The translations under genes and the position numbers were made by a program. A DNA stretch of 41,347 bases from Candidatus Berkelbacteria bacterium (lineage in GTDB: Bacteria; Patescibacteriota; UBA1384; XYA2-FULL-43-10; 1-14-0-10-43-13). Shown one piece after another: positions 3,180 through 28,797 of this stretch. The notes beneath the pieces were generated by a model. The model ran no database searches, was not told the origin of the DNA, and was given only the letters and a program-made list of their open reading frames with translations. Each line of letters opens with the position of its first letter. The first letter of the stretch is position 1. The DNA lies in contig JAPLVL010000020.1 of assembly GCA_026397135.1 (NCBI GenBank), positions 17,679-59,025 on the forward strand, read 5' to 3'.

Positions 3180-4001
3180 ATGTCTATTTCAAAAAAGGAC
3201 AGCCAAGCCAAATATAGTCAACTTTTGGTTGACCTAGGACTGACCGAAAAAGAGGCCAAAATTTATGAAACACTGCTCGACACAGGCCAGCAAGGCATCA
3301 AGAAATTACTAGAGTCCACCCCCTACAAACGCGGTGACCTATACAATATTCTCTATTCTTTGCGCGACAAAGGCATTATTGAACAAACACTCAGGAACCG
3401 GCGGATTGAATTCCGCGCTTTACACCCCCAAACTCTTATCAACTTTCTCAACCGCAAGAAGGAAAACATCAAAACAGCCGAGGTTTCACTGGAAGCTCAG
3501 ATGGCAAACTTGATAACTGATTATTCTCTCTTCGCTACCAAACCAACCGTCAGCTATTTTGAGGGGATCGAGGGTCTGGAAAAGATATATACTCTTCTCA
3601 ACACCTCCTGCAGGAAGGATATACTTCTCATACGATCTATTTACGATGACGATACCAAAGAAGAAATCGAATTGATTGGGAGTCAATTCAAGAAGCAAAT
3701 CAAACTCGGGATCAAGACAAAAGCTTTGACCCCCAAAGATGAGAATGCTCTAGAGACATATTGGCAAAACGACAAGAAATATTTGATCGAACGCCGGATT
3801 GTCGAGCGCTACAAATTTTCCCTACCTGCTCAAATCATGGTTTGGGGCAACTCTGTCGCCATTTGCTCAATGCGCAAAACCGGAGTATCCACTCTAATAG
3901 AGGACAAGGATATCGCCCAAACCTTCAAAATTATTTTTGAATACATCTGGGACAGTACCGAAAAATATCACGAGAAAAAATATGAGCGAACTGGCAAATA
4001 A
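3180..4001 (+). CDS. TrmB-family transcriptional regulator
   Basis: The N-terminal winged helix-turn-helix (LGLTEKEAKIYETLLDTG, then YKRGDLYNILYSLRDKGIIEQ) is the TrmB/Rrf-like pattern in which a wing hairpin follows (RIEFRALHPQTL). Residues about 85-110 form a coiled dimerisation helix, and the C-terminal part from about 125 (YFEGIEGLEKIYTLLN) resembles the TrmB effector region. The family usually senses sugars or other small ligands; the ligand here is not deducible. I start at the ATG at 3180 because GGAG precedes it and the promoter lies inside the longer ORF. An operator-like repeat over its promoter suggests autoregulation. The converging neighbour is a metal transporter, but no direct link is shown. 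Confidence 0.85.
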   Translation: MSISKKDSQAKYSQLLVDLGLTEKEAKIYETLLDTGQQGIKKLLESTPYKRGDLYNILYSLRDKGIIEQTLRNRRIEFRALHPQTLINFLNRKKENIKTAEVSLEAQMANLITDYSLFATKPTVSYFEGIEGLEKIYTLLNTSCRKDILLIRSIYDDDTKEEIELIGSQFKKQIKLGIKTKALTPKDENALETYWQNDKKYLIERRIVERYKFSLPAQIMVWGNSVAICSMRKTGVSTLIEDKDIAQTFKIIFEYIWDSTEKYHEKKYERTGK

Positions 4002-4087
4002 TATTAGATAAAAATAGTCCAAACTTTAATTTGTAACTCCACAGAAGCGAATATTACGCAAAGAATGAGCCATTTTGAATATTTAGT

Positions 4088-5464
4088 CTATCCAAAGAAT
4101 GAATAAATCGTGGCTATGCCGGCGATAGTCATCAGAGCGACACAGAGCCAGCCCAGAATCTTCGAAAAAGCGCCACTTGTGTATTGCCCCATAACTTTCT
4201 TGTTACTCGAGAGAAGCACAATCACAATCAGAAGTAGTGGCGCAGCTAGACCGTTGGCAACAGCTGAATAGATCAGAGCTTTGATTGGGTCGAGACCAAT
4301 GAAGTTAAAACCCAATCCCAGTACAGTTGCGATAATAATTACACCGTAGAAAGCACTGGCCTGTTTCAGCTTGAAATTCAAACCCTCTTTCCAATTAAAT
4401 GCCTCCGACAAAGCATACGAAATCGAGCCGGCTAGCACCGGAATAGCGAGGAGGCCAATACCGATGACTCCCGCAGCAAATAGCAAATAAGCGTTGTCAC
4501 CTGCGATTGGCCGGAGTGCATTTGCCGCATCAGCAGCAGAACCAATATTTGTAATCCCAACTTTGTGCAAGACCGTAGCACAAACAGAAACAATGAAGAA
4601 CATCACCAGGTTGGAATAAAACATTCCCGACCAGACATCCGTCTTCATATGACCAATTTGTTCCGAAGTAATATTTTGCTGGCGCAGCTTCACGCTTGAA
4701 TCACCCTGCTCAATCCGATCCTCTACCTCCTGTGATGCCTGCCAGAAGAACAGGTAAGGAGAAATGGTAGTGCCAAGAATTCCACAAATCAAAATTATCT
4801 GATCTTTGTCAAGCGACAGTGACGGTATAACCAAACCTTTGAATGCAGCATGCCAATCCATCGCGACCGCCGGAATAAATGCCGTGAAAATGTAAGCAAG
4901 TAGTGCAAAGGAGAGGTATTTGAGATATTTCGAATAAACTCGATAACTAACAAAGATTTGTAGAGCCAAAGTGATGATAGTGAAAATAATCGCAAGTGAA
5001 GTAAAACTATGATTTGGCAAAAGTAGTTTTGCCGATGCAGCCATTGCGCCAAGATCAGCCCCGATGTTGAAAAGGTTCGCCCCAAGAAGGAGCAAGGTGG
5101 CAGCAATCAAAACCCATCTGGGAAAATATCGCTTGATATTAGAGCCAAGGCCACGACCTGTGACCAATCCTATTCTGGCGCACATTTCCTGTACTCCGGC
5201 CATCAATGGGAAGGTGAAGAGAGCAAGCCAATTGAGCTGAAAGCCATATTTTGCCCCCTGCTGAGAGTAGGTAGCAATACCAGAACAATCATCATCTGCT
5301 GCTCCCGTAGTAAGTCCCGGTCCCAAAAGATCCCAGTATTCCTTCGCCTTTTTGACTGGCTCGCCAGCATGAACAAACTCCCCGACCTCCTTGGTGGCTT
5401 CAATTGTCTTATCCAAGACAACGGCTGGAGACTCCACAATTTTCTCTACTACGTCTTTCGGCAT
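4088..5464 (-). CDS. Nramp (SLC11)-related divalent metal transporter
   Basis: A polytopic membrane protein of 458 aa with about eleven hydrophobic helices after a 45-residue charged N-terminus. LGPGLTTGAADDDCSGIAT corresponds to helix 1 of Nramp-related proteins, followed by GVQEMCARIGLVTGRGL and, in helix 6, GTTISPYLFFWQASQEVED. Classical Nramp proteins carry DPGN in helix 1 and an MPH motif in helix 6; here these are DDCSG and TISP, as in the divergent DDDPSG/SPYLFFWQ subgroup, with the usual Pro of that subgroup changed to Cys. Substrate may therefore differ from Mn/Fe, possibly Mg as shown for some Nramp-related transporters. ATG start with a strong AGGGAGGG site upstream. Single gene; regulation not visible. 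Confidence 0.85.
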   Translation of the reverse strand: MPKDVVEKIVESPAVVLDKTIEATKEVGEFVHAGEPVKKAKEYWDLLGPGLTTGAADDDCSGIATYSQQGAKYGFQLNWLALFTFPLMAGVQEMCARIGLVTGRGLGSNIKRYFPRWVLIAATLLLLGANLFNIGADLGAMAASAKLLLPNHSFTSLAIIFTIITLALQIFVSYRVYSKYLKYLSFALLAYIFTAFIPAVAMDWHAAFKGLVIPSLSLDKDQIILICGILGTTISPYLFFWQASQEVEDRIEQGDSSVKLRQQNITSEQIGHMKTDVWSGMFYSNLVMFFIVSVCATVLHKVGITNIGSAADAANALRPIAGDNAYLLFAAGVIGIGLLAIPVLAGSISYALSEAFNWKEGLNFKLKQASAFYGVIIIATVLGLGFNFIGLDPIKALIYSAVANGLAAPLLLIVIVLLSSNKKVMGQYTSGAFSKILGWLCVALMTIAGIATIYSFFG

Positions 5465-17336: not shown

Positions 17337-18350
17337 TTAATTCTTACTGCCTAATTCTTGCCTTCCTGCCAGCTGCCCGCATGCGCCGGCTATTTCCTCG
17401 CCGAGACTTACACGCAAGGTGACAGGGATGCGATTCTCCAGCAAGACAGTCTTGAATCTCTCAATCTGGTTCCGACTACTGGCCCGAAATCCCGATCCTG
17501 GAATTTCGTTGAAAGATATCAAATTGACCAAGGCAAGCCTGCCTTTCAGAAGCTCAGCTAATTTGTAGGCATGATCTATACTATCATTCTCACCCTTTAA
17601 CATCAAATATTCATAGGTCACCTTCTTGTTCGTCTTGGACACAAATTGATCCAGGACATGCATCAACTCCGAGAGAGGATTAACCTTTGCAATCGGCATT
17701 AATTTTTCTCTCAATTTCTGGTCTGCCGCGTGCAGACTGATCGCCAATGTTGTGCCGGTATCAGACTCAATGAATTGCAAAAGCGGTTTAATGGGGCCGC
17801 AGGTCGAAACGGTAATATGACGACGACCCAGATTGAAGTAATCAGGATTGTTTAATTCACCAATCGCAAATAAAACATTTTGTAGATTAAACAACGGTTC
17901 GCCCATGCCCATGAAAACAACATTCGTCAGCTTTCCGCCTTTGGCTTTTAACTTCCGACTTACAAATAAAACCTGTGAAACAATTTCCCAGGCAGTCAAA
18001 TTGCGTTTGAATCCAATCTGACCAGTAGCGCAAAAAACGCAGCCGGAAGCACAGCCGACCTGAGATGAAACGCAGACAGTATTGCGACCATCGCGAAATT
18101 GCAACAGGACAGTTTCAATAACACAGCCGTCAACCAATACTAGCGCCCACTTGGTCGAACCGTCTTTGGAGACCTGTTCTGATTTGGTTGTGAAGGGTAC
18201 AAGATTGGTCTCTTTCTCAATCATTCCCCTCTCGTATTTGGAAAAAGTGGTCAAGTCCTCCGCCCTTTCGACCAGGTTCACAAAAATGGCAGTCCTAAGC
18301 TGCTTTTGGCGAAGTGATGTCAAATTTTTCAAATATTCATAAAAATCCAC
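17337..18350 (-). CDS. rlmN: 23S rRNA (adenine(2503)-C2)-methyltransferase RlmN
   Basis: Radical SAM enzyme that methylates A2503 of 23S rRNA and A37 of some tRNAs. The CASGCVFCATGQIGF cluster motif (CxxxCxxC) is present, as are QVGC before it, MGMGEPLFN, HITVSTCG, ISLHAADQKLREKLMPI and, near the C-terminus, LRVSLGEEIAGACGQLAG with the Cys used in the covalent intermediate. Length (337 aa) is near the family norm. The start is GTG at 18350 (DFYEYLKNLTSLRQKQLR), the only sensible start in the frame. The last codons are made of the AAGAATTAAG word repeat. Monocistronic or leading to the coiled-coil gene. Confidence 0.95.
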   Translation of the reverse strand: MDFYEYLKNLTSLRQKQLRTAIFVNLVERAEDLTTFSKYERGMIEKETNLVPFTTKSEQVSKDGSTKWALVLVDGCVIETVLLQFRDGRNTVCVSSQVGCASGCVFCATGQIGFKRNLTAWEIVSQVLFVSRKLKAKGGKLTNVVFMGMGEPLFNLQNVLFAIGELNNPDYFNLGRRHITVSTCGPIKPLLQFIESDTGTTLAISLHAADQKLREKLMPIAKVNPLSELMHVLDQFVSKTNKKVTYEYLMLKGENDSIDHAYKLAELLKGRLALVNLISFNEIPGSGFRASSRNQIERFKTVLLENRIPVTLRVSLGEEIAGACGQLAGRQELGSKN

Positions 18351-21772: not shown

Positions 21773-23929
21773 ATGAATCGCGAAGAACTTGCAAAGGCAA
21801 TCGCCAAAAAGGCAAAAATCGGCACCAAGACAGCTGACCGTATTATCGGCGCTTTTGGCGAAGCAATCACCGAAGCTCTGAAAAAGAAAGACCGCGTCAT
21901 TTACTCAAACTTTGGAGCCTTCTATACAGTTCACTATCCATCCAAAGTAATTTTGCACCCCACCCTTGGCGAGAAAAAGAAAATGATTATGCCGCCAACC
22001 GATGTCGTCAAATGGATGCCATCAGGAAACATCAAAGAGCTAGTAAGCGGTACTGCCAAACTTGAGCACATTACCAGTTTTGGCTCAGCCAAACGTCTCT
22101 ACGAAAGCCAGGATCCCGAGACCAGAATCGCAAAATCACACGAAGTAGACGATCAACCCACTTTGAAAAAGTCAGCTCCAGAAGACGAGACTTATGATAT
22201 TCCGATCAAGGTTAAGTCCCCAAATTCCGTTCAGAACCATCAAAGTGTCTTTGGCGACGCAGAAGAAGTAAATCCGGATGAGGAAGTCGCTATTCCGATT
22301 CACCTGATGAGGAAGAAACCCTCCGATATTATTCCTATCCCTGATCTCGATGAAGAGCCTGATCACAATTCAGAAGACAACATTTCAGATGAAGAAGGCG
22401 ATCTCGTCGCTGTCTCCAAATCTACGCCTGCCTTTATTGATTTACAGAATTATATTATTCCACACCAAATCTTGGCCCTAATGCCTGAACTCTTCGCCAG
22501 ACATTTCAAGATTGTACCGATCGGCGGAGACGAACATGAACTAATCGTTGCAATGACAGACCCTGACGACAAGGAGACAATCGAGCTGGTCCGTCGTCTC
22601 ACAGGCAAGAAGATATCAGTTCACCTGACAGACGAAGTTGGCCTGCAATCCATCTATGAGCAATACCAAAGCCTCAACAATCGTGAACAGACAGTCTGGG
22701 AGCATGCCTTTGACAACGAAATGATCTCGAACAAGACAAGCAAAACCGCCCCGATAATCCGAATCGCCGCATCTCTCGTCAAAAACGCCATCCGCGATCA
22801 TGCAACCGAAATTCACGTCGAGCCGCAAGGTAGCGAGATTCAAATTAGATTTCGAATCGAAGGAATACTGAAGAAGAACTCTGCATTCCCCAAAGAGATA
22901 GGCTTGACCTTAGTCAAAGTACTGAAAGATCTCTCCGGACTCAAGGGCAACGCCGAAGGACTTCCCCAAGACGGACAACTTCGTTTCCGTCTTGGCAACG
23001 AGGAATTCGATTTTCTAACCCATTCGATTCCGACGGCAGAGGGCGAGAAATTGTATCTCAAGATGATCAGCAAACTCCCGAAGCTTTACTCTCTTGAGGA
23101 CCTCGGGCTAGAAGAGGCTGATTATCAACTCATCCAACAAAATTTACGCAAAACTACCGGCCTAGTGTTAATAATCGGCTCAAAAAATTCAGGCAAGACA
23201 AGCACGGTTTACTCCTTTTTGCGAAGTCTCTTGGCCAATGTCATCAACATCTCGACAATCGAAGACCCGATCGAGGCTAAAATTCCTGGAATCAACCAAA
23301 GTCAAGTCAATACTTCTATCGGTTTTGATTTGCGCTTAGGCCTCGACACAATAATTAAGCAGTCCCCCGACGTTTTGTATATCAGTAGCCTCACCGACAA
23401 GAAAATTGCAGAGCAGGCTCTTCTAGTCTCCCAAGACTGCCTAGTCATAACTACTTTGGAAGCTGCCACCGTACCCGAAGCACTAACCAAAATGATAAAT
23501 TGGGGAATCGATCCTCTACTTTTGGAAAGTTGCCTAAACCTAATCACTCTCGAACATCTAGTGCGCCGAAACTGTGAAAGCTGCAAGAAAGAAATGACCC
23601 CGAGCGATCTCGAGGTCAAATCAATTCGCGATGAAGTTGCCAAAATGTCCTCCCGAGACCAATCCTTTATTCACAAGATGAGACTCCATTTTTTCAAAAG
23701 CGAAGGCTGCTCCGAATGTGGAAAATCCGGATACCGCGGACGCTTTGCCGCCTTTGAGATAATCGAGCCTACTCATGAGTTTATCGAAATGGCCCTAAAC
23801 CATAAATCACCGGGACTTTTCTGCGATTATTATCGTACGCACAACCTCAAATCCTTGCGACAAGATGCACTACTCAAAGCTCTCACAGGCTATACTTCAC
23901 TTGCAGAAGTCTGGAAGATACCTGAATAG
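21773..23929 (+). CDS. HU/IHF-domain fused to PilB/GspE-type ATPase
   Basis: Fusion of 718 aa. Residues 1-92 are an HU/IHF-type DNA-binding domain (MNREELAKAIAKKAKIGTK, ITEALKKKDRVIYSNFGAF, ending VVKWMPSGNIKELV). An acidic linker follows (DEEPDHNSEDNISDEEGD). Residues about 220-305 match the MshEN/T2SSE N-terminal domain (PELFARHFKIVPIGG, LIVAMTDPDD). The type IV pilus assembly ATPase core follows: HATEIHVEP, Walker A GSKNSGKT (about 469), Asp box STIEDPIEAKIPGINQSQV and tetracysteine zinc site (CESC about 600, CSEC about 645). The Walker B region, normally GEIRD, reads SSLTD, and the His box, normally LHTN, reads LEAAT, so catalysis is doubtful. Own promoter and terminator; pilus-type neighbours. 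Confidence 0.88.
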   Translation: MNREELAKAIAKKAKIGTKTADRIIGAFGEAITEALKKKDRVIYSNFGAFYTVHYPSKVILHPTLGEKKKMIMPPTDVVKWMPSGNIKELVSGTAKLEHITSFGSAKRLYESQDPETRIAKSHEVDDQPTLKKSAPEDETYDIPIKVKSPNSVQNHQSVFGDAEEVNPDEEVAIPIHLMRKKPSDIIPIPDLDEEPDHNSEDNISDEEGDLVAVSKSTPAFIDLQNYIIPHQILALMPELFARHFKIVPIGGDEHELIVAMTDPDDKETIELVRRLTGKKISVHLTDEVGLQSIYEQYQSLNNREQTVWEHAFDNEMISNKTSKTAPIIRIAASLVKNAIRDHATEIHVEPQGSEIQIRFRIEGILKKNSAFPKEIGLTLVKVLKDLSGLKGNAEGLPQDGQLRFRLGNEEFDFLTHSIPTAEGEKLYLKMISKLPKLYSLEDLGLEEADYQLIQQNLRKTTGLVLIIGSKNSGKTSTVYSFLRSLLANVINISTIEDPIEAKIPGINQSQVNTSIGFDLRLGLDTIIKQSPDVLYISSLTDKKIAEQALLVSQDCLVITTLEAATVPEALTKMINWGIDPLLLESCLNLITLEHLVRRNCESCKKEMTPSDLEVKSIRDEVAKMSSRDQSFIHKMRLHFFKSEGCSECGKSGYRGRFAAFEIIEPTHEFIEMALNHKSPGLFCDYYRTHNLKSLRQDALLKALTGYTSLAEVWKIPE

Positions 23930-26398: not shown

Positions 26399-26436
26399 AC
26401 CTCCCAGCTCATAAATTGAGACGGGAGGTATTTTTT
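26399..26436. terminator. Intrinsic terminator
   Basis: ACCTCCC...GGGAGGT with an inner CTCA/TGAG pairing, followed by ATTTTTT. It ends the 183-aa gene and touches the stop of the converging DJ-1 gene. Confidence 0.85.
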
Positions 26437-26953
26437 ATTTTATAATCATTTCCACGATCTTCATTCCGAAAATATCAGCGGATGGTACACCGTCTGCCGT
26501 GACAATATTGCCATCGACAGTCACGCCTTCTTTCGTGTACACAATTCCACGAGAAATTAGTTCCTCTTTGGCCCCCGGCCAAATCGTCGCCTTCTTGCCG
26601 TCCAAGATACCTGAGCGTGCCAGGACAGCAACAGCCCAGCAAATCGCTGCCACAATTTTACCAGCTTTGAAAAAATCACGAGCGAGCGAAAGGGCCGATT
26701 CTTCCACCAAAATTTGTGGTGTTCCTGGACCGCCAACGAAAACAACCGCCTGATAATCCTCAGCATTGATCTGTGATAACTCGAAATCAACTTCGACACT
26801 TTGCCCGGACGCTCCATAGCACTCCCCAATCGTTGTCGAAGCGATCGTAACTCCAATCCCTTCGTCATCAAAAGCTTGTTTCGTCTGAAACAACTCCTCC
26901 TCACGAAAATTACTCGGCGCAATCACCATCAATACATTACTTTCCGATCCCAT
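26435..26953 (-). CDS. DJ-1/PfpI superfamily protein
   Basis: 172 aa with the class I glutamine amidotransferase-like fold. The Glu near the N-terminus (SNFREEELFQT), the loop VVFVGGPGTP and the nucleophile elbow AAICWAVAVLARSGILDGKKAT are in the expected order. The Cys nucleophile is kept, but the residue after it is Trp instead of the usual His or Gly, so activity may differ from PfpI peptidases or DJ-1 glyoxalase/deglycase members. The start is the ATG at 26953, with GGAGG upstream. It follows the GxxExxY gene by about 40 bases on the same strand. Confidence 0.88.
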   Translation of the reverse strand: MGSESNVLMVIAPSNFREEELFQTKQAFDDEGIGVTIASTTIGECYGASGQSVEVDFELSQINAEDYQAVVFVGGPGTPQILVEESALSLARDFFKAGKIVAAICWAVAVLARSGILDGKKATIWPGAKEELISRGIVYTKEGVTVDGNIVTADGVPSADIFGMKIVEMIIK

Positions 26954-26994
26954 AATTCCTCCAGCCAAGAATGGATAACTAATTTTACTAATCA

Positions 26995-27375
26995 CTAATA
27001 ATAATTTGGTATTCTTTTAATCTTAACACCATCTCTCGTGAAACGTACTATCAGGCCAAGCTTCAGCTGAGAAGTTTTTAAATATTCAAAGAGCTGATAA
27101 CAAGAATTTTTATATTCTCTGTCCCCGACCTTAACTTCAATAACAATTTTATCATCAACCAAAAAATCAAAAAACCTCTTGGCCAAAGTTTTTCCTTCAT
27201 TTTTTATCGGATAATAAACTTCCCGCTTGAACAAGTTGGTTTCTCTTTTTAAAAGTTCTTCAAAAGCATCAGCGTAAATTTTTTCACGATGCCCATAACC
27301 AATTTTGTTGTCTATCTCATATGCTAGTCCAACAAGCCTGTAGGACAGATCTTTGTAAAGTAATTCTCTATGCAT
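26995..27375 (-). CDS. GxxExxY family protein (PD-(D/E)XK-like)
   Basis: 126 aa. The name-giving motif reads GHREKIY. The nuclease-like core is visible as FFDFLVDDKIVIEVKVG (Asp, then E-x-K), typical of this widespread family of small PD-(D/E)XK-like proteins of unknown role. ATG start without a clear ribosome binding site, 13 bases after the HypC-HydE stop; translation may be coupled. Family assignment is good, biochemical activity unproven. Confidence 0.88.
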   Translation of the reverse strand: MHRELLYKDLSYRLVGLAYEIDNKIGYGHREKIYADAFEELLKRETNLFKREVYYPIKNEGKTLAKRFFDFLVDDKIVIEVKVGDREYKNSCYQLFEYLKTSQLKLGLIVRFTRDGVKIKRIPNYY

Positions 27376-27388
27376 TTATTATTCGTGA

Positions 27389-28753
27389 TTAGTTTAATTT
27401 GCGATCCATTTCTGGAACAACGCGGAGGCGTTGTTCTATCATTTCCCAGCTCTCTTCACCCTTAAACAAACCGTACTTTTGCCAGACTTTTTCTCGCTCA
27501 CGATATTTATCGTCGTAAATGGCGTAGGATTTGCAATATTTCTCCGGAGTCAAGTTGAACATCAGTGCGTTTGCTCCGGCAAGCAAACCGAGATGGCGAC
27601 CCTCCAGATCAAGTGTTTCAAGCGCAGTTGTAACCGGTATTTTAATCTCCGGCATCAAAAACCGGGCAATCGCAATATATTTCAAAGTCAATTCCAAAAG
27701 AGTTTCTCTCGTCATTCCCGACCCGATCGGGAATCCATCAGAAATATTGGATCCCCAGGTCATGGCTTCGCCTGCCCGAGGATGACAAGATAGCGGAGTA
27801 TTCTTTGCTAATAAAAAGGGCCCGGCCGAGAGCATCGGTGCCTTCAAACTTTTCATAAAAATCAGATCATCAGCAATACCTCCAATCGTTTGGCCAGGTA
27901 GTCCGAATAGGCTACCTGTCGCCACATAGTAGCCCGTTTTAATTAATTCCTGAATTAGCCTTTTTCGATCATCAAATTTATGACCTGGCCGCATCTTGGC
28001 ATACAATTTTTGGTTGGATATCTCAAAGCGAATTAGTGCACCAGTCGCTCCAGATTCATACGCTTCTTTGTAAAAATCAACACTTCTCTCACCAACCGAC
28101 AGAAATATGAAAACTCTCATTTTCTTTTTGATCTCTCTTACCAGCTGGATCAATTCTGAATCAGAATAATTCTCATCTTCTCCGCTTTGCAAAACGAGAA
28201 GTTTATAACCTTCGTTTTCGACAGCATTCCCGGCGACTTCGACGATCTCCTCAACGCCAAGCCGGTATCGATCAATCCCCTGGTTGTCCTTCCTAATCCC
28301 GCAATAGAGGCAATTGTTCTTGCAGTAATTTGAGAATTCAATAATTCCATGAATACAAACAAAATCTTTGATCCGCTCCTTGCGCAGAGTGTTCGCCTCG
28401 GCATAGAGAGTTTCGAGATTATTCTTGCCTTTCAGACTAAATAAATAAATTATCTCGTCCTTGGTTAAATTTGAATCACCACTTCTGACTTTGTAGATAA
28501 TTTTCTTGAATTTGAGAGAGAGGCGACTGACATCGACTGGGTTATATTTGTCTTCCAACAATGAAATAATTTCCTTGGCGTCTTCCTCCGATATGGCCTT
28601 CACTGCCCTGTTTGTGGCGTAAAGTATCCAATCCCCGGGTTTCACATCAAAAACAAGCGAGAGGTCAATCTGTGCCCTCTCGCGATGAGATATGACAGTT
28701 GCCACACCCTTACTATCTATACTTTCGATTTTTCCAGGAATTGTTAAACACAT
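27389..28753 (-). CDS. HypC-like chaperone domain fused to HydE-like radical SAM protein
   Basis: Residues 1-70 match HypC/HupF chaperones of [NiFe]-hydrogenase maturation: MCLTIPGKIESID start, then LSLVFDVKPGDWILYA and ISEEDAKEI. The N-terminal Cys that carries the Fe(CN)2CO unit is kept; the conserved His of the VH-x-G segment is not. Residues about 135-450 match HydE, the radical SAM maturase of [FeFe]-hydrogenase: FSNYCKNNCLYCGIRKDN (CxxxCxxC), LVLQSGEDENYSD, FLSVGERS, GSLFGLPGQT, PVTTALETLD. I use the second Met (28753), which gives the HypC-type Met-Cys end. Residues about 322-348 (CHPRAGEAMTWGSN...) are a palindromic element read in frame. No hydrogenase genes are in the window. Confidence 0.88.
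   Translation of the reverse strand: MCLTIPGKIESIDSKGVATVISHRERAQIDLSLVFDVKPGDWILYATNRAVKAISEEDAKEIISLLEDKYNPVDVSRLSLKFKKIIYKVRSGDSNLTKDEIIYLFSLKGKNNLETLYAEANTLRKERIKDFVCIHGIIEFSNYCKNNCLYCGIRKDNQGIDRYRLGVEEIVEVAGNAVENEGYKLLVLQSGEDENYSDSELIQLVREIKKKMRVFIFLSVGERSVDFYKEAYESGATGALIRFEISNQKLYAKMRPGHKFDDRKRLIQELIKTGYYVATGSLFGLPGQTIGGIADDLIFMKSLKAPMLSAGPFLLAKNTPLSCHPRAGEAMTWGSNISDGFPIGSGMTRETLLELTLKYIAIARFLMPEIKIPVTTALETLDLEGRHLGLLAGANALMFNLTPEKYCKSYAIYDDKYREREKVWQKYGLFKGEESWEMIEQRLRVVPEMDRKLN
27415..27436. repeat. Palindrome related to the 23-bp repeats
   Basis: GAACAACGC-GGAG-GCGTTGTTC forms a hairpin within the last codons of the HypC-HydE gene. Core and loop resemble the repeats at 1758-1780 and 1970-1992. 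Confidence 0.5.
27711..27787. repeat. Palindromic element in frame in the HydE-like domain
   Basis: Starts GTCATTCCCGACCCGATCGGGAATCCATC and ends GCCCGAGGATGACA. Outer ends GTCAT/ATGAC are inverted and the left half is a strong hairpin. The reading frame of the gene is unbroken. Confidence 0.85.
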
Positions 28754-28755
28754 AC

Positions 28756-28797
28756 ACAAAAGTTAAATGTTAAAAGTTAAATGTTAAAAATTAAAGA
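28756..28797. repeat. GTTAAAT tandem words
   Basis: aaaagttaaatgttaaaagttaaatgttaaaaattaaag lies directly upstream of the HypC-HydE start, where a ribosome binding site would be expected. Confidence 0.7.

Follow-up and report, generated by a model that had tools for sequence, protein, structure and literature searches.

A gene found in a Candidatus Berkelbacteria genome assembly (GCA_026397135.1; GTDB lineage Bacteria; Patescibacteriota; UBA1384; XYA2-FULL-43-10; 1-14-0-10-43-13) encodes a protein in which a HypC domain is joined to a HydE-type radical SAM domain. HypC takes part in the maturation of the large subunit of [NiFe] hydrogenases; HydE-type radical enzymes are, to our knowledge, known solely from [FeFe]-hydrogenase assembly. 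Which of the two enzymes such a protein serves, and by which route, is the question raised by this locus. The window, i.e. the whole stretch of DNA analysed, is 41,347 nt long and corresponds to positions 17,679-59,025 (forward strand) of contig JAPLVL010000020.1. The genome, denoted G000, was examined by targeted family searches.

Domains of the fusion protein

The features of the gene are listed in Table 1. An in-frame TTG at 28759, two codons upstream of the ATG, provides a mechanical, alternative start. The predicted structure of the full-length protein has a mean pLDDT of 82.8 and a pTM of 0.86.

Table 1. Features of the HypC-HydE gene, in window coordinates
Feature	Position	Strand	Description and evidence
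HypC-HydE fusion ORF	27389..28753	(-)	454 aa, ATG start at 28753
HypC domain (aa 1-68)	28550..28753	(-)	N-terminal Met-Cys2-Leu-Thr-Ile-Pro; His of GDW-xxxH changed to Ala; PF01455, TIGR00074, fold match 2z1c, alignments
HydE-type radical SAM domain (aa 76-445)	27419..28528	(-)	TIGR03956, 257.4 bits; structural alignment to TmHydE
Radical SAM [4Fe-4S] motif CKNNCLYC (CxxxCxxC, aa 144-151)	28301..28324	(-)	Cysteines unchanged across 21 fusions
In-frame insertion within a variable loop of HydE (about aa 324-349)	27707..27784	(-)	Imperfect inverted-repeat DNA, predicted disordered

Residues 1-66 match the PF01455 (HupF_HypC) profile over all of its positions (1-65 of 65), with an E value of 1.2e-13 and 51.4 bits (cut-off 28.5). 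The TIGR00074 profile scores 51.2 bits (cut-off 48), and is matched at E <= 1e-5 by all the 21 fusions that were aligned. When the domain is folded alone, the PDB matches ranked 1 to 9 are all HypC proteins, 2z1c at a TM of about 0.8; sequence matches of this part in PDB are similarly HypC (2z1c, 3vyr). Met1-Cys2 and Thr4-Ile5-Pro6 are invariant in the 21 fusions. The fusions thus share with HypC, HybG and HupF proteins the fold, Met-Cys2 and the xxIP motif, and are usually the only HypC of their genome. They differ in being joined to a radical SAM enzyme, in having no HypD partner in the genome, and in the histidine that follows the W of GDW by four residues (H51 in E. coli). This residue is Ala in the window protein and Ala, Ser, Thr, Met or Ile in 16 fusions; it is absent also from the remaining ones, hence from every fusion checked, whereas the three aligned standalone HypCs have it. 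In E. coli, it is Cys2 of HypC-family proteins that bears the Fe(CN)2CO group and makes contact with the large subunit (PMC8692609; PMC12134894), and a part in holding iron within the HypCD complex has been proposed for the histidine (PMC12134894). Its loss, together with the joining of HydE and HypC in one chain, fits a scaffold which no longer meets HypD.

The second domain matches TIGR03956 (HydE) from about residue 93, at 257.4 bits (cut-off 254.6), and all 21 fusions match the profile at E <= 1e-5. PylB was considered as its identity and discarded, as the score is 147 bits (PylB cut-off 348) versus 257 for HydE. The best PDB match of the full model is Thermotoga maritima HydE (TmHydE; TM 0.89, target-normalized), and the complex-B-bound form 7o1o aligns with Z 42 and rmsd 2.4 over 335 residues. 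CxxxCxxC, QSGED and GER are all present in the window protein, the cysteines and the QSG motif being invariant in the 21 fusions, which have a mean identity of about 55% in this domain. Compared with canonical HydE (TIGR03956; TmHydE 3CIW and 7O1O), fold, CxxxCxxC, most conserved barrel residues and the HydG neighbour are in common. What distinguishes the fusions is the added HypC domain, the position in a separate clade, and about six conserved changes. According to TmHydE native numbering, inferred from chain offsets, these are R54 to His, T134 to Phe, R155 to Gly, H160 to Phe or Tyr, G226 to Ser or Thr, and P292 mostly to Phe. Fusions also occur without HydF, almost never with HydA, and together with a [NiFe] hydrogenase.

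The insert in the window copy, about 26 residues around CHPRAGEAMTWGSNISDGFPIGSG, is reminiscent of palindromic repeat elements that insert into genes. The stretches of the window genome examined contain no further copy of the repeat.

The original prediction placed HypC and HydE in one protein, with the N-terminal Cys and the HydE motifs kept and the usual HypC His lost. It is borne out on each point: both families score above their curated cut-offs, the predicted folds agree, and profile and structure comparison concur in assigning residues 1-68 to HypC.

Distribution of the fusion and associated genes

Searches covering the window's class, the whole phylum and named genomes identified the HypC-HydE architecture in 23 distinct genomes, some of which are incomplete MAGs. 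The count excludes four duplicates with identical match coordinates (G399=G177, G400=G053, G401=G077, G410=G032). G053 and G032 are carriers from the class of the window. Carriers belong to Moranbacteria, Falkowbacteria, Berkelbacteria, Peregrinibacteria and ADurb.Bin212 (Patescibacteria), to Planctomycetota and Brocadiaceae, and include MAGs labelled Deltaproteobacteria or Proteobacteria. In a maximum-likelihood tree of 21 fusions and seven canonical HydE, the fusions form one clade (support 95/93), in which the window protein groups with those of G053, G177 and G077 (100/99). Being found in 23 genomes and in one clade, the fusion is not the product of chance or misassembly, and that it is real and conserved is virtually certain.

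In 15 of the 20 loci from named genomes HydG is directly, or nearly directly, downstream of the fusion. The two genes mostly lie within 80 bp or overlap, often across the stop codon of the fusion. Three of the other five loci are from a HydG-less subclade, and two are cut by contig ends; in HydG-bearing genomes HydG directly follows the fusion wherever the downstream DNA is readable. In the full-length HydG copies examined, CxxxCxxC is retained, and so is the dangler-iron cluster motif CTACYR-x-C at the C terminus. A [NiFe] large subunit is encoded at no more than about 8 kb from the fusion in half of the loci (10/20), and genes for the small subunit, diaphorase-type subunits, hypA, hypB or hycI are close by in several. 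With hypA, hypB and hycI in the vicinity, the nickel and protease branches of maturation remain, while the branch for Fe(CN)2CO is missing.

The large subunits found at Patescibacteria fusion loci are short and group-3-like; L023, L024 and L026 have longer ones, nearer to group 1/NiFeSe models. The L024 large subunit (3699-5252) halts at an in-frame TGA which replaces exactly the first Cys of the C-terminal DPCxxC (DP-TGA-MAC). Given this position, selenocysteine is probable, and the enzyme is probably a NiFeSe hydrogenase in a genome having both fusion and HydG. Large subunits of L008 (6363-7613), L017, L020, L025 and L028 end directly after DPCxxCxxH; as they have no C-terminal extension, a maturation protease should not be needed.

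At the genome level, a [NiFe] large subunit is encoded by all 23 carriers. A HypD search over 35 genome entries (31 distinct) yielded no match, with positive results for E. coli and three further control genomes; HypE above cut-off was missing from all 35 entries searched, and HypF above cut-off from all 39 searched. HypE-like matches in the larger genomes stay below the cut-off of 251.6 bits, and the two best ones examined, at 121.7 and 115.4 bits, belong to the AIR-synthase family and lack the C-terminal Cys; HypF matches are partial, below cut-off, and cover separate parts of the profile. Full-length HydF is absent from the 23 fusion genomes, and was found only in G043; matches elsewhere involve the GTPase part alone. 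HydA is absent from 22 of the 23, the only genomes carrying it being G053, a fusion genome, and G043, which has canonical HydE, HydG and HydF and no [NiFe] large subunit. The G053 HydA (L057, C2:3040) exhibits the H-cluster motifs SSCCPAW, MPCTAKK and EVMACPGGC, in a genome with neither HydF nor HydG. HydG scores above the TIGR03955 cut-off in 19 of the 23 carriers, the exceptions being G000, G053, G077 and G177, and 17 of the 19 have no HypC other than the fusion. A second, standalone HypC occurs in the four HydG-less genomes, in G032 and in G226.

No hydrogenase is encoded in the 41,347-nt window, as originally noted, but the statement does not extend to the genome, which has a group-3b [NiFe] hydrogenase operon on another contig (C45; L008 2821-7613), with the standalone HypC about 1.7 kb past the large subunit. 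HydA, HydF, HydG, HypD and HypE, which the original prediction had indicated as genes to be sought, are all missing from the window genome.

Seven genomes (G419-G425) encode a [NiFe] large subunit and a standalone HypC, and have no HypD, no HypE or HypF above cut-off, no HydG and no fusion. Absence of HypDEF is therefore wider than the fusion, and alone is no proof of replacement by it. In six of the seven a DUF6390 gene is found beside the EamA-type transporter gene next to HypC. Cassettes of HypC, EamA transporter and DUF6390 were observed at L037-L039 and L041-L043 (Parcubacteria, Portnoybacteria, Diapherotrites), several with hydrogenase genes alongside, in [NiFe] genomes devoid of HypDEF, HydG and the fusion. 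DUF6390 was considered as a partner of the fusion and discarded, as it is absent from all fusion genomes.

A proposed hybrid route to the [NiFe] site

Since all fusion genomes encode a [NiFe]-hydrogenase and lack HypD, HypE, HypF and HydF, the known [NiFe] site, reached by a new route, is the most parsimonious target. The fusion very probably has a role in [NiFe] maturation, and it is likely that in HydG-bearing genomes a HydG-HydE-HypC route replaces HypDEF in building the site. Of the two functions originally envisaged, a maturation factor for a new metallocofactor is not needed, on the same grounds; a repurposed scaffold delivering iron-carbonyl-like ligands comes close to the best explanation, once the [NiFe] site is set as target.

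The substrate, the sequence of steps, the product and the transfer are inferred as follows. HydG would cleave tyrosine, giving an iron complex bearing CO and CN, to be passed on to the fusion's HydE domain. Here SAM radical chemistry may remove or alter the cysteine ligand of the complex, and the Cys2 thiolate of the HypC domain, located in the same chain, would capture the mononuclear iron, with no dimerisation, unlike in [FeFe] maturation. The HypC domain would subsequently dock the apo large subunit and hand over the iron group, and HypA and HypB would add nickel after the transfer. The HydG product is described as an Fe(CO)2(CN)Cys synthon, which passes to HydE to be converted into an Fe(I) species (PMC12752695). 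Its 2 CO:1 CN composition does not correspond to that of the [NiFe] site (1 CO:2 CN), so that one has to assume either an additional step or a different site: the mismatch could be settled by ligand exchange between two synthons, or could denote an unusual active site. A version in which CO and CN- both derive from tyrosine via HydG and the fusion, independently of HypDEF, and the finished site is Fe(CO)2(CN), a new variant of the cofactor, seems unlikely, and the new composition is speculative.

The proposed route has HypC, HypA, HypB and HycI functions, encoded at fusion loci, and the [NiFe] large subunit as target in common with the canonical HypABCDEF pathway, from which it differs because HypD, HypE and HypF are missing and the radical SAM enzymes HydG and HydE are found instead. 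With the HydEFG pathway it shares HydG, complete with both cluster motifs, and the HydE domain, but neither the HydF scaffold nor, in 22/23 genomes, the HydA target. If the route is true, a tyrosine-cleaving enzyme of [FeFe] assembly would be used for the [NiFe] site, and pathways thought to be unrelated can swap a key step. It would also explain active hydrogenase in Patescibacteria and other organisms that have hydrogenase but no hypDEF, and would provide a compact, two-gene replacement of hypDEF for engineered hydrogenase production. In the open-access literature searched, no account was found of a HypC-HydE fusion, or of HydG and HydE acting on [NiFe] enzymes; for CPR hydrogenases, only a hypC-like neighbour is mentioned by Jaffe et al. 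2020.

The HydG-less subclade and alternative functions

The complete pathway cannot run as proposed in the window genome, G053, G077 and G177, which lack HydG. It is the 19 HydG-bearing genomes that support the full hybrid route, which applies only in part to the window organism. The four genomes form one subclade, and are 94-100% complete. Their standalone HypCs are His-bearing in the three examined. In the window fusion the HydE catalytic residues are intact, and by this token its HydE domain is probably active. The subclade may have lost HydG, or may use another source. A radical SAM gene of the window (17337-18350), considered as a HydG substitute, was identified as RlmN and discarded.

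It is conceivable, though rather improbable, that in this subclade the HydE domain has been repurposed, fusion and standalone HypC working together with an external or otherwise different source of iron-bound CO and CN-, as a partner cell or another enzyme. The grouping of the four genomes in one branch of the fusion tree, the second HypC found in all, the intact catalytic residues and the HydA retained by G053 without HydG are consistent with this; however, no candidate CO/CN- source was found, and HydG could be missing from the assemblies, an event unlikely to occur in four genomes of such completeness.

The hybrid route must be weighed also against the possibility that the fusion synthesizes a different cofactor and not the [NiFe] site. 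The changes of R54 to His, T134 to Phe and H160 to Phe (TmHydE) suggest altered chemistry or substrate, but the fusion is linked to [NiFe] structural genes, hypA, hypB and hycI, and strictly co-occurs with the large subunit, which makes this possibility very unlikely. Still an ordinary HydE, i.e. an [FeFe]-hydrogenase maturase which gained the HypC-like domain for some other purpose, could be hypothesized from the score above the TIGR03956 equivalog cut-off, the HydG partner in 19/23 genomes and the H-cluster motifs of the G053 HydA. This reading is largely refuted, and to be regarded as highly improbable, because HydA is absent from 22/23 and HydF from 23/23 fusion genomes, all of which have a [NiFe] large subunit, fusions are located in [NiFe] operons, and they share conserved changes relative to canonical HydE. 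That neighbouring genes were joined by an assembly error or by chance, or that the fusion is non-functional, as the odd repeat-like insert of the window copy might suggest, is refuted almost beyond doubt by 23 distinct genomes from several phyla, the single clade, the identity of about 55% in the HydE domain and the invariant catalytic residues.

Other genes found in the surroundings of the fusion are worth mentioning. Directly downstream, at 26995-27375 of the window, lies a gene encoding a PDDEXK_3 nuclease-fold protein. DJ-1/PfpI-family genes are close to the fusion in three loci (window 26435-26995, L025:10717-11229, L018:13969-14487). A single ORF at 21773-23929 of the window encodes a type II/IV secretion ATPase (MshEN and T2SSE) carrying an N-terminal HU-like bacterial DNA-binding domain.
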